Below are positions 12,894 to 25,932 of a stretch of 64,000 nt of DNA, in pieces; the first letter of the stretch is position 1, and the number at the start of each line of letters is the position of its first letter. The notes under the pieces are model-generated. The model was not told the origin of the DNA. It ran no database searches and saw nothing but the letters and a program-made list of their open reading frames with translations. The position numbers and the translations under genes are program-made. Source of the stretch: Maribacter algarum (ex Lu et al. 2025) (nom. illeg.) (lineage in GTDB: Bacteria; Bacteroidota; Bacteroidia; Flavobacteriales; Flavobacteriaceae); contig CANMAW010000001.1 of NCBI GenBank assembly GCA_947495915.1, positions 620,001-684,000 on the forward strand, in the 5' to 3' direction.

Positions 12894-14225
12894 TTGAAAA
12901 AAAAAGATTTTGGTGAAAATTTCATATGGGGAGTTTCTACTGCAGCTTATCAAATAGAAGGGGCATATTTATCTGAGGGAAAGAAAGCATCAATATGGGA
13001 CGAGTTTACTTCGAAGCCAAAAAAAATCTATGAAAACCAAAATGGGCAAGTAGCATGTGATTTCTATCATCGTTATAAAGAAGACATTCTTATGATGAAG
13101 AAAATGAATATAAAGAACTATCGTTTTTCTATCTCCTGGTCAAGAATAATTCCGAATGGTACTGGTGCACTTAATGAAGCGGGAATCAATTTTTATAATG
13201 AAGTAATTGATTTTTGCCTAGCCTGTGAAATTACTCCGTGGGTCACTCTGTATCATTGGGATTTGCCCCAAGAATTAGAAAACAAAGGCGGGTGGGTGAA
13301 TAGAGCCATCTTAGAATGGTTCTCAGAGTATGTAAAGGTTTGCGCAATACGTTTTGGAGATAGGGTAAAGAACTGGATGGTTTTAAATGAGCCCATGGTA
13401 TTTACTGGTGCTGGCTATTTTTTGGGTGTTCATGCTCCTGGTCGCACTGGCTTGAAAAATTTCTTACCCGCCATGCATCATGCAACCCTTTGTCAATCGC
13501 TTGGTGGAAAAATCTTAAAAACTTACGTTGTCAACGCAAATGTTGGTACCACTTTTTCGTGTTCTCAAATAACTGCACATTCTGATAGTGATAAAGATAT
13601 TAGAGCTGCTAAAAGAGCTGACACCCTAATTAATCGTTTGTTTATTGAACCTGCATTAGGAATGGGATATCCTGTGGAAGATTTAAAGGTTTTAAAAAAA
13701 CTTGAAAAACACCAATACCCTGAAGATGCTGATAATATAATCTTTGATTTTGATTTTATAGGAATTCAGAATTATACTCGAGAGGTTATACGACATAGCT
13801 ATGGAGTACCCTATTTACGTGCAAAGATTGTACCTGCAGAAGAACGTGATGTGCCCCTCACCGAAATGAAATGGGAAGTTCATCCACTCAGTATTTATGC
13901 AATGATTGAACAGTTTAATCAGTATAAAAAAGTAAAGAAATTGATCATTACTGAAAATGGCGCTGCCTTTAAAGATACAGTCATCAATGGGCAAGTAAAT
14001 GATAAAGAAAGAACACAGTATTTTATTGATTATTTAAATCAAGTGAATAAAGCAAAAAAGTCAGGGTTTGAGGTGTCGGGTTATTTCGCATGGACATTGA
14101 TGGATAATTTTGAATGGGCAGAAGGCTTTCGCACGCGTTTTGGCTTGGTTCATGTGAATTACGAAACTCAACAGCGAACACTTAAAAAATCTGGACAATG
14201 GTTCGCTGATTTTTTAAAAGGGTAA
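12894..14225 (+). CDS. bglA: GH1 beta-glucosidase, cytosolic
   Basis: 443 aa, starting at TTG 12894 (no in-frame ATG nearby; DFGENFIWGVSTAAYQIEG is the normal GH1 N-terminus). Acid/base Glu166 is in WMVLNEP and nucleophile Glu354 in LIITENGAA, both GH1 signatures; FEWAEGFRTRFG near the end binds the sugar. Full length, no signal peptide, so it acts on imported or internally made glucosides. It follows the glycosyltransferase by 33 bases. Substrate specificity (beta-glucoside, galactoside or glycolipid) is not determined by sequence. Confidence 0.93.
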   Translation: MKKKDFGENFIWGVSTAAYQIEGAYLSEGKKASIWDEFTSKPKKIYENQNGQVACDFYHRYKEDILMMKKMNIKNYRFSISWSRIIPNGTGALNEAGINFYNEVIDFCLACEITPWVTLYHWDLPQELENKGGWVNRAILEWFSEYVKVCAIRFGDRVKNWMVLNEPMVFTGAGYFLGVHAPGRTGLKNFLPAMHHATLCQSLGGKILKTYVVNANVGTTFSCSQITAHSDSDKDIRAAKRADTLINRLFIEPALGMGYPVEDLKVLKKLEKHQYPEDADNIIFDFDFIGIQNYTREVIRHSYGVPYLRAKIVPAEERDVPLTEMKWEVHPLSIYAMIEQFNQYKKVKKLIITENGAAFKDTVINGQVNDKERTQYFIDYLNQVNKAKKSGFEVSGYFAWTLMDNFEWAEGFRTRFGLVHVNYETQQRTLKKSGQWFADFLKG

Positions 14226-14303
14226 ACTTCATCTCAAATTGCAAGACTACAAAAGCATTAGTTATATTTCTTATCGAAAGTTTCTTTGCTATTAGCTGAT
14301 TTT

Positions 14304-14311
14304 TATCTTCG
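14304..14311 (+). promoter_or_regulatory. -7-like element before Kelch gene
   Basis: TATCTTCG differs from TAnnTTTG at one position; a TTTG lies 15 bases upstream (14285-14288). About 21 bases before the start codon. Confidence 0.3.
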
Positions 14312-14332
14312 TAGGTAACTAAAAATAAAACC

Positions 14333-15355
14333 ATGTTTCGAAAGTGTTATTTTGTAATAGGGCTGCTACTTTTCATCAATTGCAAAGAGAAGCACGTTGA
14401 TAAAAAGACTGTAATTGAGAGTAATCAGACCACGAAACAATTAAGCTGGCAGGCTGTTGAATCTTCTGATGATAGTATGCCAATTGAAAGGCATGAGGCG
14501 GCCTTTGTTCGGGTTAATGAAAAATTTTATTTATTAGGAGGTCGCGGTATCAAACCTGTCAGCATTTATGATACAACTACGAAACGTTGGTCGAAAGGAG
14601 CTGAAACTCCTATTGAAATGCACCATTTTCAGCCCGTAGTTTATCAAAACAAAATTTACTGTATTGCCGCCATGACGGGTGAGTGGCCAGATGAAACCCC
14701 AACAACACATATTTATATTTACAATCCTGCAAAAGACGAATGGAAAAAAGGAGACGAAATACCTGCGGCACGTCGAAGAGGTTCTACCGGAAATGTGTTA
14801 TATGAAGGTAAAATTTATTTGGCTTGTGGTATCAAAAATGGACATATTGGCGATCATAAAAAATGGATGGATAGCTATAACCCTGAAACAGGAGAATGGG
14901 AAGTTCTTGAAGATGCTCCCAGGGCTCGCGATCATTTTCAAGCCGTATTGATTGATGGAAAAATAATAGCTGCTGCGGGAAGAAACACTGGTATTATTCC
15001 CGAAGAAGCTTTTGGTGGAACCATTACTGCCGTTGATGCGTATGATATAAATAGTAATACTTGGCAAACCTTACCATATCCAATTCCGACAGAACGAGCA
15101 GGAAATGCAGCTATTGTTTATAATGATGAAGTTTTGATTGTTGGCGGTGAATCAATGAGTCAAGAAAAAGCACATGCTACCGTTGAAGCTCTTGATATGA
15201 AAACAAATAATTGGCGAAAGTTGCCCGACATGACTGAAGGACGCCATGGTTCAGGGCTATTATACTTTGAGGGTGGTATTTATATTGCTTCCGGTTGTGG
15301 AAATCGAGGAGGTAATCCAGAATTGTTTACTATGGAGAAGCTAAGTACGCATTAA
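14333..15355 (+). CDS. Kelch-repeat lipoprotein
   Basis: 340 aa. Lipoprotein signal with Cys17 (LLLFINC). The remainder has five to six Kelch blades. Examples of the repeat core are KFYLLGGRG, KIYCIAAMTG, KIYLACGIKNG, EVLIVGGES and GIYIASGCGNRGG, each followed by a W-bearing strand of the type RWSKGAETP or NWRKLPDM. This forms a beta-propeller at the outer membrane or periplasm. Such proteins bind carbohydrates or sialic-acid-like ligands (for example NanM) or other proteins; ligand unknown. The gene converges on the metalloprotease gene with 7 bases between. Confidence 0.85.
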   Translation: MFRKCYFVIGLLLFINCKEKHVDKKTVIESNQTTKQLSWQAVESSDDSMPIERHEAAFVRVNEKFYLLGGRGIKPVSIYDTTTKRWSKGAETPIEMHHFQPVVYQNKIYCIAAMTGEWPDETPTTHIYIYNPAKDEWKKGDEIPAARRRGSTGNVLYEGKIYLACGIKNGHIGDHKKWMDSYNPETGEWEVLEDAPRARDHFQAVLIDGKIIAAAGRNTGIIPEEAFGGTITAVDAYDINSNTWQTLPYPIPTERAGNAAIVYNDEVLIVGGESMSQEKAHATVEALDMKTNNWRKLPDMTEGRHGSGLLYFEGGIYIASGCGNRGGNPELFTMEKLSTH

Positions 15356-15362
15356 AAAGTGA

Positions 15363-17930
15363 TTACTTCTCTTCCATTTCTTTGATTGAAATATCTTTTC
15401 TAATTGGTGTAAATAAAGGTGTTGTACTTTCAGTTTCTCCGACCACTGCTTCTATTTCCCTTTGTAAATAATTTAAATGAGCAATTGTAAGACGATCGGT
15501 TATTATGGGTAAAGTGCTTTTAATTTTCGCTTGTAACGAAATCAAATTGTCTAATGCCAGCGATCGAACATCTGTATTTGCCGTATAGCCTTTAGATAAC
15601 TCAGCCAGTAGACCTTCAACTACACCTTCAGTAACATCGGGTTTATAAAGGGCTATCATATTGGCAACGTATGATTTTTGTAATTTTCTTTTGTAAGCAT
15701 TAGTTTGATAAAAAACATTCATATCACCCCATACTAATTGGCTCAAATCATCAATATAATCGTGAGGTAGGTATGGGTTTTCTGTATCATAACGTTCAGC
15801 AATGAATGTCATTCTACTTAATCTGCTTCCCCCCAACAAATTCATCATAACACTTTCCATAGTTTTAGTTACCGCTTCCTTTGAACGCGGTGATCGAACT
15901 GCATTTAAAATATCATTTCGCATAAGCCATTTTGGCTCTTTAAAAATGTAATTGTTTAAAAAAACTAAGGCTTGTTTCTGCGTAAGTTGATCTACTGGTT
16001 GGTATACATCACCTTCCTCTCCCATAGTTTTTGGCGTAACGTAAATTCCTCCAATATTTTTAGTAACATGAAAGATGTAATCGCTGTATTGTTCAACAAT
16101 ATCGTTGTAAAGTTGATCTAAGTTTGAGTAATCATCACTGTTATTATCTTTTACCCATTCTTTAATGCAGGGTGTAATGCGTTGCAGATTTAAAATCCCG
16201 AACATACTTGCTTCCATTGCATTGTCACCTAAATCTTCTCTTTGCGATCTCGGATCAAAGTCGCGTCCCTCACCCCCAAACCATAATCTAGGATTATTAT
16301 TAACACTGTCAACCACCATTTGACTTAATACTTCTTTCTCTTCTTTCGAACTTAACCCTTCTGAAACTCTTGTATAGCCCCATTGTATAGCCCATTTGTC
16401 ATAATCACCAATACGAGGCATGAGGTTTTTTACCGGAATATTGTCTTCTGGCTGTGCTACATAATTAAAACGAGCATAGTCCATTATTGAGCTGGTATGG
16501 CCATTTTTTTCAAGCCAATCGGCATCTCTAAGTTTAGAAACAGGTGTCGCAGAACTAGCACCCATATTATGTCTCAAACCCAGCGTATGACCAACTTCGT
16601 GCGAACTTACGAATCGAATTAAATCTCCCATCAGTGCTGTATCGAATTGCATTTGTTGTGCACGTTGATCAACTGCACCTGCCTGCACCATGTACCAGCT
16701 ATGTAAAAGATTCATCAAATTATGATACCAACCGATATGACTTTCTAGTATTTCTCCACTTCTTGGGTCAACAATATTAGGGCCATAAGCATTTTTAGAT
16801 GGCGAAGCGAAATAACGCAAAACAGAAAAGCGAGAATCTTCTAAGCTCATGCTCGCATCATTTTCTGGCCATTCTTTACCAATGATCGCATTTTTAAATC
16901 CTGCTTGCTCAAAAGCAACCTGCCAATCATTAATGCCCTGTATTAAATATGGGCGCCATTTTTTTGGGGTGGCCGGATCAATATAGTAGACAATAGGTTT
17001 TTTAGGTTCTACTAATTCACCGCGCTTCCATTTGTCGACATCTTCCTTATTAGGCTCAAGTCTCCACCGATGTATATACGCGTTTTTTGATACTTGTTGT
17101 TGATTATCGCCATACTCAATGTAAGAACTAGCGAAATATCCAACCCTAGAATCAAAGTATCTTTTTTTCATTGGTTCTTTTGGAAGCAAAATGAAAGAAT
17201 TATTGATTTCTAGTGTAACGACTCCTGCTAAAACAGCGGCAGGCAACTCTTTTCTAAGCTTATCTTTACTTGACTTCGCTTTGTAGGTTTTAACGGTTTT
17301 AATTTCAGTATTCTGTTGATAAGAATTAATCTCATTGATATAAGACTTGTCTTTTTCTAAACCTAATAGGCGATAGGCATCTTTTTTTGAAGAACTTAAC
17401 GCCAACAAAGGGTTTTCACTGTTTAAGAAATCTGTTACTTGAATGAGATATGTATTTTTCTTTTTATCAAAAGCTTCAATATCAAATGCTTCAAGAATTG
17501 GTGTAATGTTTGAATTATTTACCGCTTTTGAAATGGCATCTTCTTCATCGGCAGCACTTACTAAAGTTGCAATTCTAAGAAATAGTTGATCTGCTGGTCC
17601 TTTTTCAAACAGAATGGTATTCTCTGAAATTTTTTCACCTCCATAATTACGTGCACCTGAAGGAGTTTTTATAAACCTTGTTACTACTAAAATCTCTCGA
17701 TTCAACAGACTATCTTGAATTTCAAAATAGTATTTTGAACCTACTTGATGTACAGTAAAAAGACCATTTTGAGAAAGTGTATCATCAGTAAGTATTTGTT
17801 TAATGCTTGAAGACTCTTTTGTAGAATGTACCTGAGTTGAATTTGATTTTTGTGATTTTGAGGCCATCGTTATCGATCCGCAAGAAGCGAATAATAAAAC
17901 GATACTAATTACAAAAATGAAAAGCCTCAT
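15363..17930 (-). CDS. DUF5117-type zinc metalloprotease, lipoprotein
   Basis: 855 aa from the ATG at 17930 (MRLFIFVISIVLLFASC, a proper lipoprotein signal with Cys17); a longer frame adds six residues. The HEVGHTLGLRHN motif at about residue 440 gives three zinc ligands and the catalytic Glu. The large N-terminal region and the C-terminal helical part match Bacteroidota zinc-dependent metalloproteases with DUF5117/DUF5118 domains. It is exported and lipid-anchored; the target is unknown. It is transcribed alone. Confidence 0.9.
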   Translation of the reverse strand: MRLFIFVISIVLLFASCGSITMASKSQKSNSTQVHSTKESSSIKQILTDDTLSQNGLFTVHQVGSKYYFEIQDSLLNREILVVTRFIKTPSGARNYGGEKISENTILFEKGPADQLFLRIATLVSAADEEDAISKAVNNSNITPILEAFDIEAFDKKKNTYLIQVTDFLNSENPLLALSSSKKDAYRLLGLEKDKSYINEINSYQQNTEIKTVKTYKAKSSKDKLRKELPAAVLAGVVTLEINNSFILLPKEPMKKRYFDSRVGYFASSYIEYGDNQQQVSKNAYIHRWRLEPNKEDVDKWKRGELVEPKKPIVYYIDPATPKKWRPYLIQGINDWQVAFEQAGFKNAIIGKEWPENDASMSLEDSRFSVLRYFASPSKNAYGPNIVDPRSGEILESHIGWYHNLMNLLHSWYMVQAGAVDQRAQQMQFDTALMGDLIRFVSSHEVGHTLGLRHNMGASSATPVSKLRDADWLEKNGHTSSIMDYARFNYVAQPEDNIPVKNLMPRIGDYDKWAIQWGYTRVSEGLSSKEEKEVLSQMVVDSVNNNPRLWFGGEGRDFDPRSQREDLGDNAMEASMFGILNLQRITPCIKEWVKDNNSDDYSNLDQLYNDIVEQYSDYIFHVTKNIGGIYVTPKTMGEEGDVYQPVDQLTQKQALVFLNNYIFKEPKWLMRNDILNAVRSPRSKEAVTKTMESVMMNLLGGSRLSRMTFIAERYDTENPYLPHDYIDDLSQLVWGDMNVFYQTNAYKRKLQKSYVANMIALYKPDVTEGVVEGLLAELSKGYTANTDVRSLALDNLISLQAKIKSTLPIITDRLTIAHLNYLQREIEAVVGETESTTPLFTPIRKDISIKEMEEK

Positions 17931-18266
17931 AAGTAGCCAACGTTGCAAATTTTAGTTTCGTATGAAAGGTTTAGGGTCAGGCTATTGATTTAACATATCA
18001 ATAGAAATACGCGCCTTGAATTGGTGATGAACTGCGTAGTACATTAAAAAGTAATGTTTAAAAGCATCAGTTTTTAAGCTAAATCGGCACTCTATTAACA
18101 TTAAATGTATTATTAAAGGTTGTTTTATGATAATAAATACTGCCTTTTATAGAAGAAGTCGTCATTAATAGGTAGTCGTATTCTTAAATGTTGTACATTA
18201 CTTCCCCATTTTTTGGGCAACCATAAGAATTTCACTAATATAAATGTATCGTTAATAACCGAAGTG
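17931..18266. other. Divergent intergenic region with inverted repeat
   Basis: 336 bases between the metalloprotease and the GTPase-operon starts. It holds a perfect 8-bp inverted repeat (CTATTGAT, 17982-17989, and ATCAATAG, 17997-18004) 52 bases before the metalloprotease start. No clean TAnnTTTG was found on either strand. Confidence 0.4.
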
Positions 18267-18626
18267 ATGGATAAAAAGCACGAAACCATGTTTAAATTAG
18301 AAGATAAAATTGAAAGCTCAGTTTCTAAGATTGATGTTATCAAAAATTTGATTTTCGGCGAAACTATTCAGGCATATGATGCAGAGTTTGAAGAATTAAA
18401 GAAAGATATTTTAAACAAAAAGAAGGTTTTAGAAGATTTGATTGAAGACATCAAGGCTGATTTAAATACAACCATTGATAGTGTTGCTACTGATGTAAAT
18501 ATTAGAATTACTGCTTTAGAAAAGAATCTTGATGATAAGATTGAAAATCTAGGAGAGGAGGCTGTAAATAAGCAGGTTTTAGGAAAGCTGTTGGTAGAAT
18601 TAGGAGAGAAAATAGGTAAAAAATAA
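18267..18626 (+). CDS. Coiled-coil protein, first gene of Ras-like GTPase operon
   Basis: 119 aa from the ATG at 18267 (a longer frame using TTG 18213 adds an unlikely tail). Almost entirely helical, with long heptads rich in Glu, Lys and Ile/Leu; examples are FEELKKDILNKKKVLEDLIE and ITALEKNLDDKIENLGEE. No membrane segment. No known domain recognised. Ten bases before the roadblock-like gene, so probably in the same transcript. A scaffold or GTPase partner role is inferred from position only. Confidence 0.72.
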   Translation: MDKKHETMFKLEDKIESSVSKIDVIKNLIFGETIQAYDAEFEELKKDILNKKKVLEDLIEDIKADLNTTIDSVATDVNIRITALEKNLDDKIENLGEEAVNKQVLGKLLVELGEKIGKK

Positions 18627-18635
18627 ATTAGCACC

Positions 18636-19499
18636 ATGTATCCTAAAATGAATGAAAAAGATAAGATAGAAATCTTAAAAGACATTCTTTTTGCGGATGA
18701 TCATGAATTTGAACAAAAAATTTCTCAACGGGTTGAACTTTTAGAACAAACAGTTCAAGAACGAGATAAATTATCGGAAAAAGTGGATCCAATAATTTCG
18801 TATCAAATTGATGAGTTTAAAAAAAGTATTCCTGATACGTTAGGCCCTACTATTACAGAAACTTTACGAACTGAGATTAAGAACCACAAAGATGAGGTTG
18901 TTGATGCTCTATATCCGGTTTTGGGTAAGATGGTTAAAAAGTATGTAGCCCAAGAAATGAAGCTGCTTACTGAAAAAATGAATGGTCAATTAAGTTTTAT
19001 TTCACTGTGGAAGAGAAAACTTAAAGCTACATTTTCTGGAAAGAATGAAGAGCAGATGATGCTCGATGATATGGCATCTGCAAGAATTCAACAGGTCATG
19101 TTGATTGAGAAAGATTCTGGAATTCTTAAGGCGGGTTATAGCAAATCAAACATGATGGATGAGGAATTGATTTCAGGCATGTTGACAGCTATAAAATCTT
19201 TTGTTGAAGACGCTTTCAATCAAAGAGATCAAAATCTTGAATTGATTGAATATGAATTGTATCAAATTCACTTACAAAGTTTTGCTACACATTATATGGC
19301 GGTAGTAATTTCAGGTGATTTTGGACTTAGCTCTAAAAACAAACTTCAAGATATTATATTTGATTTTTATCATAGTTTTATGGCAATGAATGTTGATTTG
19401 GTGTTTGATACGAAAAACGCTCAAAAAAGTATAGTTACTGTTCCTAAATCACGAATAGAAAGAGAATTGGCCAATTATTTTGGGGGTGATAAGATCTAA
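18636..19499 (+). CDS. Roadblock-like GTPase partner with coiled-coil N-terminus
   Basis: 287 aa. N-terminal about 115 residues are helical (LEQTVQERDKLSEKVDPII, then SIPDTLGPTITETLRTEI and VDALYPVLGKMVKKYV). This block resembles the N-terminus of cyanobacterial and proteobacterial OmpA-type proteins linked to small GTPases. From about residue 145 (RIQQVMLIEKDSGILKAGY ... MMDEELISGMLTAIKSFVEDAF) the sequence resembles roadblock/LC7 or MglB-like domains. No OmpA domain follows. The C-terminal coding region overlaps the GTPase start by 14 bases, so the two are translationally coupled. Family assignment by pattern, not by search. Confidence 0.68.
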   Translation: MYPKMNEKDKIEILKDILFADDHEFEQKISQRVELLEQTVQERDKLSEKVDPIISYQIDEFKKSIPDTLGPTITETLRTEIKNHKDEVVDALYPVLGKMVKKYVAQEMKLLTEKMNGQLSFISLWKRKLKATFSGKNEEQMMLDDMASARIQQVMLIEKDSGILKAGYSKSNMMDEELISGMLTAIKSFVEDAFNQRDQNLELIEYELYQIHLQSFATHYMAVVISGDFGLSSKNKLQDIIFDFYHSFMAMNVDLVFDTKNAQKSIVTVPKSRIERELANYFGGDKI

Positions 19500-19983
19500 A
19501 AAAATTGTTGTTTTAGGACATTTTGGCGTTGGCAAAACATCGCTAATTCGTCGGTTTGTCACTGATACCTTTTCTAATAATTATAAAGTTACTATAGGTG
19601 TTCATATAACTAAAAAGGTTGTAGAAATCGCTCCAAACGATTCAGTTTCATTAATTCTATGGGATTTAGAAGGAACTGATGATATTGCTACCCTTAGAAA
19701 ATCTTATTTGTTAGGAACCCATGGTGTGGTTTACGTTTTTGACATTACTAGGCCGTCAACTTTTCAAAATTTAAATGTAGACTTAGGTATACTTAAAGAA
19801 AAAATACCTGAAATACCCTTATTGATTGTTGGTAATAAATTTGACCTTATTGATGAAAACCAAGTAAAGGAGGTCTTTGAAAAGAATGCTATTGCCTATG
19901 ATTTTTTGACTAGTGCAAAATCAGGTGTCGCCGTTAACGAAATGTTTTTACAATTAGCAACCCTTCTTTCAACCAATGCTTAA
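19486..19983 (+). CDS. Ras/Rab-like small GTPase
   Basis: 165 aa from GTG 19486 (TTG 19480 is the alternative; no ATG nearby). It has all G boxes: P-loop GHFGVGKTS (11-19), switch I VTIGV with Thr36, G3 WDLEG (59-63), G4 NKFD (117-120), G5 TSAK (142-145). The residue after G3 is Thr64 where Ras has catalytic Gln61, so intrinsic hydrolysis may be slow and a partner may be needed. The length and order are those of eukaryotic-type Ras-superfamily GTPases (the bacterial MglA/Rup groups). It overlaps both neighbours. Likely a molecular switch in signalling. Confidence 0.88.
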   Translation: MIRSKKIVVLGHFGVGKTSLIRRFVTDTFSNNYKVTIGVHITKKVVEIAPNDSVSLILWDLEGTDDIATLRKSYLLGTHGVVYVFDITRPSTFQNLNVDLGILKEKIPEIPLLIVGNKFDLIDENQVKEVFEKNAIAYDFLTSAKSGVAVNEMFLQLATLLSTNA

Positions 19984-21502
19984 CAAATACCTAAAGCAAT
20001 ATGCTGAGAAAAGTAATCAATTCATTTTAACAAATGAAGAGGGTAAAATTTTAGAAAGTGATGAGGTCATTTGGCCTACAGTTGTTGGTCAATCAATTCT
20101 TGAACTTCATCCTTTTTTTCAAAGTATTCCTTTAACGGTAAGTGACAAAAAAACTGAAAATAGGGTTTTCTGTGTTCATCTTGAAATTAACGAAACTGCT
20201 TATATCGTTGACATTAGGCAATTATTTGTAGCAGAGGGGGTATTATTTATTATTCAAAATCTTACTGATCATTACACAGAATATCAATTAGTAGCCCAGT
20301 CTAGAAACGAATCTGTTATCGAAAAAGAACTTACTGTTCTTAAAAATATTGAATTGCAACAAAGAGAACAGTTTAAAAATAAGTTTATTCAAAACTTTAG
20401 CCATGAGTTAAGAAACCCATTAACAAGTATTATGGCTATTGTTGATCTTTTGAGAGAAACAGAATTAACCAATGAACAACAGAGCTTGTTGGCTTTTTTA
20501 CAAGAGTCGAACAGTAATTTGAGACTCATGCTAGAAGATACTTTAAGTATCGGAATGATAGATGCTGGAAAACTTAAGATTTCTCAAAAGGTGTTTGACT
20601 TAAGTCGATTTTTTGACCTGATCGAATTTACTTATACATCTAAGGCAAAGAAAAAAGGTTTGAACTTTAGCAGTTATTACGACAAGAATATTCCTAAAAT
20701 GGTCGAAGGAGACCGATTAAGGCTTTTTCAAGTAGTAACTAATCTTTTAGATAATGCCTTAAAATATACAAAGGAAGGTGAAATAACTTTTAAAATTAGT
20801 TTAAATCAAAAGAGAGCGAATACTTTAAATTTACGATTTGAAGTAAGTGACACAGGAGTTGGAATTGCTAATGAAGACCAGAAAACTGTTTTTGAAAGTT
20901 TTCAACAAGTTTCTAATGAAAACACGAAAAGAGGTGTTGGGCTTGGTTTAACTATTGTAAAAAAGTTGTTAGAATTAATGGAAAGCAAAATTATGCTTCG
21001 ATCTATAGTAGATGAGGGTACAATCTTGCACTTTGATATTACATTGAAATATCCGCTCTTTCCTGGTGTAGACAAAACAAAAAAGGTCGATAATCAAGTT
21101 CCAAAGCCATTGAAATCAAGTACTTCTAAATTCAATCTTTTACTGGTTGAAGACGATGAGCTTGTACAAGCCGCTCTATTTAAAATTCTATTAAAAACTC
21201 AAAATTATAATATTAATCTAGCGTATGATGGGGCATTGGTATTGCAAGAAGTGGTCAATAATAATTACGACATTATTTTAATGGATGTTAATTTGCCAAA
21301 TATTAATGGCCTTCAGTTAACTAAATTAATAAGAGACTTTCCATTTAAGAATATTAAAAATATACCGATTGTTGGTATTACTGCAAATGCTTACCAAACT
21401 GATCTTGATCAATATTTGAAAGCCGGTATGAATGACGTGTTAACAAAGCCTTTTGACAAGGAAGATCTTGTTAATTCGCTTTCAAGGTTTTTAAAAACAT
21501 AG
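19976..21502 (+). CDS. Soluble hybrid histidine kinase with receiver domain
   Basis: 508 aa, no membrane helix. Order: N-terminal PAS-like region (1-105), coiled coil (106-135), HisKA with phosphoacceptor His143 (FSHELRNPLTS), HATPase with N-box NLLDNALKYTKEGE, G1 DTGVGI and G2 GVGLGLTIV, a linker, and a REC domain (about 385-508) with Asp437 (ILMDVNLP) and Lys in VLTKPFD. It can autophosphorylate and pass the phosphate to its own receiver. Its ATG overlaps the GTPase stop by 8 bases, so coupling is strong. Output partner is not encoded nearby. Confidence 0.92.
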   Translation: MLNKYLKQYAEKSNQFILTNEEGKILESDEVIWPTVVGQSILELHPFFQSIPLTVSDKKTENRVFCVHLEINETAYIVDIRQLFVAEGVLFIIQNLTDHYTEYQLVAQSRNESVIEKELTVLKNIELQQREQFKNKFIQNFSHELRNPLTSIMAIVDLLRETELTNEQQSLLAFLQESNSNLRLMLEDTLSIGMIDAGKLKISQKVFDLSRFFDLIEFTYTSKAKKKGLNFSSYYDKNIPKMVEGDRLRLFQVVTNLLDNALKYTKEGEITFKISLNQKRANTLNLRFEVSDTGVGIANEDQKTVFESFQQVSNENTKRGVGLGLTIVKKLLELMESKIMLRSIVDEGTILHFDITLKYPLFPGVDKTKKVDNQVPKPLKSSTSKFNLLLVEDDELVQAALFKILLKTQNYNINLAYDGALVLQEVVNNNYDIILMDVNLPNINGLQLTKLIRDFPFKNIKNIPIVGITANAYQTDLDQYLKAGMNDVLTKPFDKEDLVNSLSRFLKT

Positions 21503-23024: not shown

Positions 23025-24836
23025 ATGCAATTAAGCTCACTCGATTATGGCTTTATAATCGTTTTTTTCACCCTTGTTTTAGGTATTGGAATTTATGTTT
23101 CCAAAAAATCAGGAGAAAGTTCTTCTGAATTTTTTCTCTCAGGTAGAACTATGCCTTGGTGGTTGTTGGGCCTCTCAATGGTAGCAACTACTTTTTCTAC
23201 CGACACTCCTAATTTAGTAACTGACCTTGTTCGAACTACAGGAGTTTCAGGTAACTGGGGATGGTGGTGTTTTCTGTTAACAGGAATGCTTACCGTTTTT
23301 GTTTATGCCAAATTATGGCGAAAATCGAATGTAAAAACTGACCTAGAGTTTTACGAATTACGATATGGTGGTAAACCAGCAAGTTTTTTACGAAAGTTTC
23401 GTGCGGTTTATTTAGGGGTTTTGTTCAATGTGATTACAATGTCTGCTGTAACGCTAGCGGCAATTAAAATTGGAGGTATAATGTTGGGTTTAGAGCCATG
23501 GCAAACTGTCGTAGGAGCAGGGCTAATAACCGTTGTTTTTAGTGCTTTGGGCGGATTTAAAGGAGTGGTTTACACCGATTTTTTGTTATTTTTTGTGGCG
23601 ATGGCGGGGGCAATAGGAGCTGCATTTTATTTGGTAAATATTCCTGAAGTGGGTGGGTTAGAAGCGGTAATATCAAATGATTTAGTGAAAAATAAAATGA
23701 ACATTTTACCTGATTTGTCTGACACCAAAATGGTGATTACAATTTTAGTAATACCATTAGCAGTGCAATGGTGGAGTTCTTGGTACCCCGGTGGCGAGCC
23801 TGGTGGTGGTGGTTATATTGCACAGCGTATGTTGGCAGCAAAGAATGAAAACCATGCTATAGGCGCAACTTTCTTTTTTAATATTATGCACTATGCTTTA
23901 CGCCCGTGGCCATGGATTCTGGTTGCATTAGCATCTTTGGTTGTGTATCCTGATGTGGCTAGTATTGCAGAAGCATTTCCTAATGTTCCTGCCGACAAAC
24001 TTGGGCATGATTTAGCATATTCAGCAATGTTAACCAAACTACCTAGCGGATTACTAGGGGTGGTTTTAGCATCGCTTATCGCTGCATATATGAGTACTAT
24101 TTCAACGCAACTGAATTGGGGGTCCTCCTATTTGGTTTTTGATTTTTACAAACAACAAATAAATCCGAATGCAACCGAAAAGCAAATGGTTGCTGTTGGT
24201 CGCTTATCAACCGTAGTGTTAATGGTACTAAGTGCATTTTTAGCACTTGCCATGCAAAACGCTATGGATGTCTTTAATCTACTATTATCCTTTGGGGCAG
24301 GCACCGGATTGATTTTTATTTTAAGATGGTTTTGGTGGCGAATCAACGCTTGGAGCGAAATTTCAGCCATGTTTGCTTCCGGAATTTTGTCTATTCTCAT
24401 AGCAACGACATCTTTGAAGTCTTATTTATTTGATGCTCAAAATGGAGTATTGCCTGAATGGGGAGAATTACCATTTATAATGATCATCACTACTGTGATT
24501 TGGCTAACCGCAACATTCATGACTCAACCAGAATCTAAAGAAGTTTTGAGAAGTTTTTACCTTAAAATTCAACCTGGCGGCCCTGGATGGGCAAAAGTCG
24601 TTGATGATGCAAATGACGATAACGAAGTAATCGTAAATACTGATGAAAAATGGAGTGTTCCATCAGGCATTACAGCAATGTTATTAGGGGTTATTTTGAT
24701 TTATACGCTCATGTTTGCAACCGGATATTGGATATACGGCAGAACTACTCTCGCGCTTATATTATCAGGTGTTGCCGTCGTTTCAGGCATACTTTTGATT
24801 GTCGCATGGAATCGAATGAAAGAAAATATTTTATAA
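23025..24836 (+). CDS. Sodium:solute symporter (SSS family)
   Basis: 603 aa, about 13-14 membrane helices. SEFFLSGRTMPWWLLGLSMV and ATTFSTDTPNLV carry the sodium-site motif region of SSS (SLC5-like) proteins; the later helix MSTISTQLNWGSSYLV carries the second Na site. Members move sugars, proline, nucleosides or sialic acid with sodium. It is followed 4 bases later by an HGSNAT-like acetyltransferase and then a secreted protein gene, so a glycan or amino-sugar substrate is plausible. Confidence 0.9.
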   Translation: MQLSSLDYGFIIVFFTLVLGIGIYVSKKSGESSSEFFLSGRTMPWWLLGLSMVATTFSTDTPNLVTDLVRTTGVSGNWGWWCFLLTGMLTVFVYAKLWRKSNVKTDLEFYELRYGGKPASFLRKFRAVYLGVLFNVITMSAVTLAAIKIGGIMLGLEPWQTVVGAGLITVVFSALGGFKGVVYTDFLLFFVAMAGAIGAAFYLVNIPEVGGLEAVISNDLVKNKMNILPDLSDTKMVITILVIPLAVQWWSSWYPGGEPGGGGYIAQRMLAAKNENHAIGATFFFNIMHYALRPWPWILVALASLVVYPDVASIAEAFPNVPADKLGHDLAYSAMLTKLPSGLLGVVLASLIAAYMSTISTQLNWGSSYLVFDFYKQQINPNATEKQMVAVGRLSTVVLMVLSAFLALAMQNAMDVFNLLLSFGAGTGLIFILRWFWWRINAWSEISAMFASGILSILIATTSLKSYLFDAQNGVLPEWGELPFIMIITTVIWLTATFMTQPESKEVLRSFYLKIQPGGPGWAKVVDDANDDNEVIVNTDEKWSVPSGITAMLLGVILIYTLMFATGYWIYGRTTLALILSGVAVVSGILLIVAWNRMKENIL

Positions 24837-24840
24837 ACCA

Positions 24841-25932
24841 ATGCCTATGAAGAATAGAATTCTTTCAGTTGATATTTTTAGAGGCGCCACTATTATCTTA
24901 ATGATTTTGGTGAATACGCCAGGTACTTGGTCTGCCGTGTATGCACCATTATTACATGCGAAATGGCATGGTTATACACCTACAGATTTAGTATTTCCGT
25001 TTTTCCTTTTTATCGTTGGAGTATCTATTGTGTTTTCTTATAAGAACAAAACTCCTAACAAAAACACCTATAAAAAAATCATAATCCGAACCCTAAAGTT
25101 GATAGGTTTGGGGCTTTTCTTAGGTGCTTTTTTAATTCATTTTCCGTTTTTTAAGTCGTTTGAAAATATTCGATTTCCCGGAGTTTTACAGCGAATAGGC
25201 GTCGTTTTTTTATGTGCATCAATTTTGTTTTTAAATTTTAATTGGAAAACCATAATTGGTTTAGCAGTGTTCTTTTTATTTGGTTATTGGTTGCTGATGA
25301 CACAAATTCCGGTTGAAGGCATGACTTCTACTTTAGATCGTGCACCAAACAACTTTGCAAACTGGCTTGATGTTAAGGTTTTTGGCACACACAATTATAA
25401 AGCTGACTATGATCCCGAAGGGCTATTAAGTACAATTCCGTCAATCGTTAGCGCTTTATTTGGAATATTCACAGGCTTAATATTAACTTCAAAACAAAAG
25501 CAAAAGGAAACGATATTATTTGGAATAGGAGGGACACTATTGATTCTAGGACACCTGTGGAACATTTTCTTCCCTATTAATAAGGCACTTTGGACTAGCA
25601 GTTTCGTCCTCGTAACATCAGGATGGGCCAATTTAATCTTAGCCCTGATTTATTATTTTACCGATGTAAAAGGATTGAAGTTTGGTAGCATATTTAAATA
25701 TGCTGGTGCGAATGCAATTATACTTTATTTTCTTTCAAGCTTTATAAGTAAAATTATGGGGCAAATTAAAATAGGTGAAACCTCTTTACATGGGTGGCTA
25801 TTTGATAAAGTGTACGTACATGATTTTATTTCTATGCAACTCTCTTCTTTGTTGTATGGCTTAACTGTAGTGGCGTTTTATACACTTTTGGCATATATAT
25901 TGTTTCGAAGAAAGATATTCTTCAAAGTATAA
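24841..25932 (+). CDS. HGSNAT/NagX-like membrane acetyltransferase (DUF5009-type)
   Basis: 363 aa, about ten helices. LSVDIFRGATIILMILVNTP and KWHGYTPTDLVFPFFLFIVG are the signature of heparan-alpha-glucosaminide N-acetyltransferase-like proteins; the His of WHG is a likely catalytic residue in this family. They acetylate amino sugars across the membrane from acetyl-CoA in the cytosol. In bacteria (NagX) the gene is linked with amino-sugar use. Operon with an SSS transporter (4 bases before) and a secreted protein (2 bases after). Confidence 0.85.
   Translation: MPMKNRILSVDIFRGATIILMILVNTPGTWSAVYAPLLHAKWHGYTPTDLVFPFFLFIVGVSIVFSYKNKTPNKNTYKKIIIRTLKLIGLGLFLGAFLIHFPFFKSFENIRFPGVLQRIGVVFLCASILFLNFNWKTIIGLAVFFLFGYWLLMTQIPVEGMTSTLDRAPNNFANWLDVKVFGTHNYKADYDPEGLLSTIPSIVSALFGIFTGLILTSKQKQKETILFGIGGTLLILGHLWNIFFPINKALWTSSFVLVTSGWANLILALIYYFTDVKGLKFGSIFKYAGANAIILYFLSSFISKIMGQIKIGETSLHGWLFDKVYVHDFISMQLSSLLYGLTVVAFYTLLAYILFRRKIFFKV

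Follow-up and report, generated by a model that had tools for sequence, protein, structure and literature searches.

What does a small GTPase of the Ras/Rab type do in a bacterial operon that ends in a histidine kinase? The question was raised by four head-to-tail open reading frames (ORFs), referred to here as g1, g2, g3, and g4, which span positions 18267-21502 on the + strand of the window, the 64,000-nucleotide stretch of Maribacter algarum DNA analyzed in this study. Our findings confirmed that the operon is real and strongly conserved, and its composition, as judged from sequence, fits that of a flavobacterial member of the Group 1 Rup systems. The features of the operon were as follows:

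18267..18626, + strand: g1, a 119-residue protein, coiled-coil-like by sequence (ORF; family alignment, 41 sequences)
18636..19499, + strand: g2, 287 residues, N-terminal helices and a predicted C-terminal roadblock/longin-like domain (ORF, Pfam, model, hydropathy)
19047..19400, + strand: predicted roadblock/longin-like domain of g2, residues ~138-255, in the order helix-strand-strand-helix-three strands-helix (AlphaFold2 model, Foldseek)
19486..19983, + strand: g3, Ras/Rab-type small GTPase with a GTG start, the ORF opening with TTG at 19480 (Pfam Ras, 4e-32)
19516..19542, + strand: G1 P-loop of g3, GHFGVGKTS (sequence, alignment)
19660..19677, + strand: G3 motif of g3, WDLEGT (sequence, alignment)
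19976..21502, + strand: g4, soluble hybrid histidine kinase, 508 residues (Pfam, hydropathy)
19976..20263, + strand: predicted PAS-fold domain at the N-terminus of g4 (residues 1-96; AlphaFold2, Foldseek)
20018..20020, + strand: codon of g4 Gln15 (alignment)
20297..20299, + strand: codon of g4 Gln108, part of a QxxNE motif where PAS domain and long helix join (alignment)
20375..20569, + strand: HisKA domain of g4, with the phospho-accepting His143 at 20402-20404 (Pfam; alignment position)
20708..21043, + strand: HATPase_c domain of g4 (Pfam)
21140..21481, + strand: receiver domain of g4 (Response_reg), with Asp437 at 21284-21286 (Pfam; alignment position)

The original prediction, made from the DNA sequence, had described these four genes with gaps of 10, -14, and -8 bases. 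The strand and coordinates held, as did the overlaps of 14 bases between g2 and g3 (with the GTG start) and 8 bases between g3 and g4, and the spacing between g1 and g2 was corrected to 9 bases. The start of g2 may lie at 18636 or 18648, because many relatives aligned only from residue 4-5 and the nearest ones from residue 1. The Ras/Rab-type assignment of g3 and the soluble hybrid kinase assignment of g4 were both upheld, the latter by its Pfam matches (HisKA, HATPase_c, and Response_reg) and its hydropathy, with His143 and Asp437 found at the places claimed. Matches of g1 and g2 were weak, all falling under the curated cut-offs of Pfam and NCBIfam; the family alignment of g1 contained a conserved motif, SKI(E/D)xIKNLIFGE.

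Conservation of gene order, which had been named beforehand as one test that could refute the prediction, was found at nearly every locus. When 199 genomes of the same family were searched with g1, g2, and g3, g2 was present in 46, g1 in exactly those 46, and g3 in 43 of the 46, the remaining 153 genomes giving no g3 match. Three genomes carried g1 and g2 without g3. The g3 stretch of G062 contained two stops and that of G079 was a fragment at a contig end, both assemblies being 81-84% complete. The third, G182 (locus L185, 4983-6249), had g1 next to a g2 that has diverged (28% identity), and no g3-family GTPase was found at 1e-10; this pair may be a remnant, or g1 and g2 may be used there without a GTPase. 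We fetched 40 of the 45 loci outside the window. The g1 gene was upstream at 40/40, and g3 and g4 were downstream at 39/40, some with extra copies; at the exceptional locus, g3 and g4 lay on a different contig from g1 and g2, all four genes still being there.

A scan of named genomes found 393 relatives, of which 80 were kept, including loci from Maribacter, Cellulophaga, Kordia, Algibacter, Lacinutrix, and Sinomicrobium. The g1-g2-g3 set was present at 80/80 of these loci and g4 ORFs at 78/80, the other two loci ending at contig ends; the g4 ORFs were split at L104, L108, and L118. Thirteen records sit in both locus sets (identical g2), so the two counts cannot be added as independent. The presence of the genes in the same genomes and in the same order across the family placed the four-gene set far beyond chance. 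Five flank families, one of them aspartate-kinase-like, were common to 25-27 of 41 loci (L034-L070), which suggests an old fixed position; none of the five was adjacent to the window copy or to L031-L033.

To which kind of system does such an operon belong? Group 1 Rup systems were described in 2014 in a computational survey of several phyla, including Bacteroidetes (Wuichet and Sogaard-Andersen, PMC4316618), Rup being a clade whose genes are uncoupled from MglB homologues. According to that survey, the set comprises a GTPase lacking the G3 glutamine, a coiled-coil cytoplasmic protein, and a third partner with a conserved domain of unknown function, often followed by a transmembrane (TM) segment and OmpA; the output protein carries an N-terminal invariant glutamine and is typically a diguanylate cyclase/phosphodiesterase or a histidine kinase (PMC4316618). 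Its authors likened the set to the conservon and proposed that the missing glutamine is supplied in trans by an unknown GTPase-activating protein (GAP), and no such system had been characterized experimentally by 2014 (PMC4316618). No later experiment on these systems was found in the open-licence literature. The original prediction, which knew of no described example of a GTPase-to-kinase chain in Flavobacteria, was therefore wrong on this point, being preceded both by Group 1 Rup (PMC4316618) and by the conservons of Actinomycetota, which join a histidine kinase with a GTPase and a roadblock protein (PMC13343842). The kind of system was already known; our study adds the predicted roadblock/longin domain, the predicted PAS fold with Gln108 and Gln15, and PAS proteins beside extra GTPases.

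The solved-structure sequences that best matched g3 were Rab-1 and Rab-35, and the best 60 of 950 such sequences were Rabs and their kin, with no MglA among them. The G boxes reported by the original prediction were borne out by the alignment: residues G13, F15, G16, V17, G18, and K19 of G1, D62, E64, and G65 of G3, N119, K120, and D122 of G4, and S145 and A146 of G5 were invariant in 40/40 aligned GTPases, the window included. The position of the Ras catalytic G3 glutamine was occupied by Thr in the window and by a residue other than Gln in 36/40. The four GTPases retaining Gln (L043, L046, L049, and L053) probably represent one lineage, and their adjoining kinases all lacked the receiver Asp (Ser or Thr). 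In its own genome, g3 was the only strongly Ras-like GTPase (E 1e-31), five further matches to the Ras model being over the Pfam cut-off and weak (1e-7 or worse).

The partner protein g2 was claimed to be roadblock-like, a claim that stood by predicted fold and failed by sequence. No roadblock match to the window g2 was found with Pfam or with a sequence profile search of the PDB; Robl_LC7 (PF03259) matched nothing in the own genome, with controls matched in 3/14, and in a Pfam search of 41 g2 relatives, roadblock was not one of the 25 families listed out of 86. The fold assignment draws on one AlphaFold2 model, built from 41 aligned sequences, and on Foldseek. The model consisted of long helices followed by a domain of helix, two strands, helix, three strands, and helix (mean predicted local distance difference test score, pLDDT, 70.5; predicted TM-score, pTM, 0.50; residues 151-250 at 64-93 per ten-residue block). 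Its five-stranded sheet had the helix order of roadblock and longin domains, between which the helix count cannot separate. Foldseek returned 713 rows, six at E <= 0.001 (best 2.6e-4). The best 50 of these included AP sigma subunits and Mon1-Ccz1, Ragulator, CPLANE, TRAPP, and Rag entries, along with axonemal roadblocks and MglA-MglB entries (ranks 36 and 47); judged by their titles, we take these 50 to be longin- or roadblock-bearing and mostly handlers of small GTPases. Based on the model, the conserved domain of previously unknown function in Group 1 Rup systems probably belongs to the roadblock/longin type, an identity that we did not find in print among open-licence papers.

Residues 1-210 of the kinase g4 were modeled with AlphaFold2 from 86 sequences as a PAS-like fold continued by a long helix (mean pLDDT 86.4), and PAS- and LOV-bearing kinases were among the best 50 of 877 Foldseek rows. 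In the hydropathy profile of g4, a single stretch (residue 75, inside the predicted PAS strands) was borderline hydrophobic. Kinase rows were compiled from proteins of more than 400 residues, second copies included, in the first locus set (n=43) and the named-genome set (n=79). Every row of both sets had Gln108 (43/43 and 79/79), and a single named-genome row lacked Gln15 (43/43 and 78/79), with His143 kept in 42/43 and 78/79; the receiver Asp was less conserved than the two glutamines (26/43 and 65/79). It was replaced by Lys at seven loci (L054, L055, L057, L062, L063, L064, and L066) and by Ser, Thr, or Ala at further loci, a decay of the receiver that was apparently repeated.

Natural duplications placed the PAS domain beside the GTPase. 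Two GTPase genes were found at L055, L057, L062, and L066, and in 4/4 of these loci the first GTPase was followed by a protein of 198-200 residues that resembled the PAS part of g4, lacked a kinase domain, and kept both Gln15 and Gln108. A second full kinase was found in seven locus rows, representing six genomes (L047 and L169 are the same record), and its receiver Asp was changed to Asn in 7/7. In the tandem kinases of L051 (9307-12356), the first has Asp in place of the phospho-accepting His and keeps the receiver Asp, while the second keeps His and has Asn in the receiver; from sequence, this looks like a relay whose halves were divided between two proteins.

Distant relatives indicated which parts of the system stay and which vary. 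A g2 relative was found in 14 of 395 genomes sampled across the phylum. Outside the class, these relatives were 589-636 residues long, carried a strong hydrophobic segment in 12/12 cases, and had an OmpA domain in the four scanned with Pfam. Since the flavobacterial g2 had neither a strong hydrophobic segment (hydropathy) nor OmpA (Pfam), the flavobacterial module would be cytoplasmic. A g3-family GTPase lay near g2 at 10 of 13 distant loci, the three without it being from one genus, and the G3 glutamine was absent from all 10 GTPases read. The neighboring output was a hybrid kinase with Hpt at L086 (Pfam), a PAS/sigma-54 activator after the GTPase at L087 (Pfam), a similar activator by reading at L089, and a separate kinase at L090 (Pfam) and likewise at L094. 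With the neighbor protein varying and the GTPase family constant, the arrangement looks like a single switch that feeds many outputs. At L090 (10011-13328) and L094 (2472-5661), the GTPase was the first gene of a separate divergent run that also held a kinase and, by reading, a sigma-54-type response regulator, and these runs adjoined g1-like and OmpA-bearing g2 genes.

Taken with the observed linkage, co-occurrence, domain make-up, and residue conservation, the two predicted folds lead us to lean slightly towards a Group 1 Rup module in which a roadblock platform holds the GTPase and the GTPase sets the kinase through the PAS domain. We infer the contacts between the proteins, the dimerization, the input, and a flow of control that runs from the GTPase to the kinase. 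In such a module, g2 would form a roadblock/longin dimer on which the Rab-like g3 docks, and g2 together with the coiled-coil-like g1 would serve as platform and regulator of g3, acting as GAP, guanine nucleotide exchange factor (GEF), or both. GTP-bound g3 would bind the PAS-fold domain of g4 near Gln15 and Gln108, at the junction of the PAS domain and the signaling helix, and thereby set the autokinase and phosphorelay activity of this soluble hybrid kinase, so that the GTP state would control the kinase. The PAS domain was chosen as the GTPase's partner because one switch was found with changing outputs and because PAS copies traveled with GTPase copies.

A number of observations weigh against this reading. 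The g2 model was of moderate quality, the other four models having a mean pLDDT of 59.8-65.5 and residues 171-200 reaching only 64-70, and its Foldseek TM-scores were low (0.18-0.33 by query, 0.15-0.64 by target), in part because the domain covers well under half of the model. The g4 gene was followed at the loci and not genome-wide. The pairwise distances of g3 and g4 were correlated (r 0.73) to a degree also seen between g4 and control genes from the flanks (r 0.60-0.80), and mirror-tree co-evolution was dropped as support since it showed no excess over those controls. In the distant outputs, the position of Gln15 was Glu or Asp by eye. In comparisons with the flavobacterial PAS domain by hhalign, the N-terminus of L086 gave a probability of 97%, the sigma-54 set 27%, and the L090 and L094 kinases <1% (shuffles 0.1-0.2%); as N-terminal homology was strong for L086 only, one effector domain common to all outputs was not claimed. 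Among the 40 best-matching kinases, one per locus and the window included, the receiver Asp was gone in 13 and the G1-box Asp in 2, and with these residues lost, the phosphorelay cannot be the output in every member.

The last of these observations also counts in favor of a reversed direction, with the kinase or PAS protein sensing a signal and setting g3's GTP state, perhaps by way of the roadblock protein, and the GTPase serving as the output. A phosphorelay output that can be lost in 13/40 kinases is dispensable, and no conserved response-regulator or target gene was recognized by eye in the flank families common to 25-27 of 41 loci. The proposed order in conservons likewise places the kinase CvnA upstream of the GTPase CvnD (PMC13343842). 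The conservon order and the receiver decay in many members make this a serious rival; it is rather unlikely on the whole, as a hybrid kinase, a sigma-54 activator, or a separate kinase may stand beside a GTPase whose family is constant, and as His143 was kept in almost every kinase row. A further alternative, which we regard as doubtful and a little less probable still, is that the PAS domain is the GAP, with the invariant Gln108 or Gln15 replacing the missing G3 glutamine in trans, and effector and GAP would then be one protein. The absence of that glutamine from 36/40 GTPases and all 10 distant ones, the retention of Gln108 in 122/122 and Gln15 in 121/122 rows (two overlapping sets), and the presence of both in the four stand-alone PAS proteins would suit such a role. 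The four loci whose GTPases have the G3 glutamine nonetheless kept both PAS glutamines, Gln15 was replaced in the distant outputs, and Gln108, which the model places on the signaling helix, may serve coupling instead.

The original prediction had suggested a function in polarity or gliding, which our survey did not support. The related protein folds are what an MglA/MglB-like device for gliding or cell polarity has in its favor; GldJ was over the cut-off in 190/199 genomes and the GTPase in 43/199, no gliding gene was recognized in the shared flanks, and MglA was missing from the best 60 of 950 solved-structure matches of g3, making such a device very unlikely. A core role in gliding was rejected, as GldJ is near universal and the system occurs in about one fifth of genomes; modulation of gliding, as something other than a core part, is possible. 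That the four genes are co-transcribed and functionally unrelated is scarcely credible: no supporting point was found, the presence patterns of g1, g2, and g3 matched, their order was kept, and all four genes persisted where g3-g4 and g1-g2 lay on separate contigs. The module in which g3 acts on the PAS domain of g4 remained the reading to which we give slight preference.

The surroundings of the operon may belong to a sugar-use region. A GH1 enzyme and a kelch protein lay upstream of it (window 12894-15355), and a sodium:solute symporter followed by an HGSNAT-like acyltransferase was found at window 23025-25932. A large Met-zincin with DUF5117/DUF5118 (window 15363-17948) was transcribed away from the operon.

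How does this operon compare with known systems? Four of the six features listed for Group 1 Rup were found in the window operon, and g1 was a kept neighbor in 40/40 loci. Both have a single-domain GTPase with Ras-like G1-G5 motifs and, in the window, no catalytic G3 glutamine; the g2 profile found long relatives bearing TM/OmpA, and the "often" of the Group 1 Rup description allows for a g2 without either. The hybrid-kinase output also carried invariant N-terminal glutamines, Gln15 and Gln108, either of which may correspond to the glutamine of the 2014 survey. The window operon differed in that its g2 lacked TM and OmpA and was predicted to have a roadblock/longin domain, and in that its output was a soluble hybrid kinase with a predicted PAS-fold N-terminus. 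The actinobacterial conservon/AGPS (CvnA-D) is likewise an operon in which a histidine kinase is encoded together with a roadblock protein and a small GTPase. In the 2014 survey, CvnB is an MglB-type roadblock protein, CvnD belongs to the MglA family of GTPases, and the kinase CvnA has membrane helices (PMC4316618). Unlike CvnB, the predicted roadblock of the window operon was invisible to sequence models; the GTPase of the operon was Rab-like, and g4 was without a strong membrane segment and without a C-terminal LPxR motif, none being found in g4, the C-terminal part of which is the receiver.

If GTPase-on-roadblock control holds for the window operon, which we rate as slightly less likely than not, the two families of prokaryotic Ras-like GTPases described so far would share it, and bacteria would have a Rab-like switch wired directly into a two-component kinase, for which a small soluble operon offers a convenient test system of a GTPase driving a histidine kinase. 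MglA and MglB of Myxococcus also pair a small GTPase with a roadblock regulator, and MglA-MglB chains were among the fold matches of g2; the differences were that the own genome lacked a Pfam Robl_LC7 match, that the operon carries a hybrid kinase, and that its GTPase is Rab-like. In GTPase type and in the predicted fold of g2, the operon resembled the eukaryotic Rab/Rag GTPases with their longin/roadblock platforms (Mon1-Ccz1, Ragulator, and TRAPP), and if the partner that stays constant is indeed of the roadblock/longin kind, Rab-like GTPases may have been paired with such platforms before eukaryotic membrane traffic arose. The system described here differs from these platforms in being bacterial and in having a two-component kinase as its presumed effector, and the likeness is a resemblance of fold, not a family assignment.

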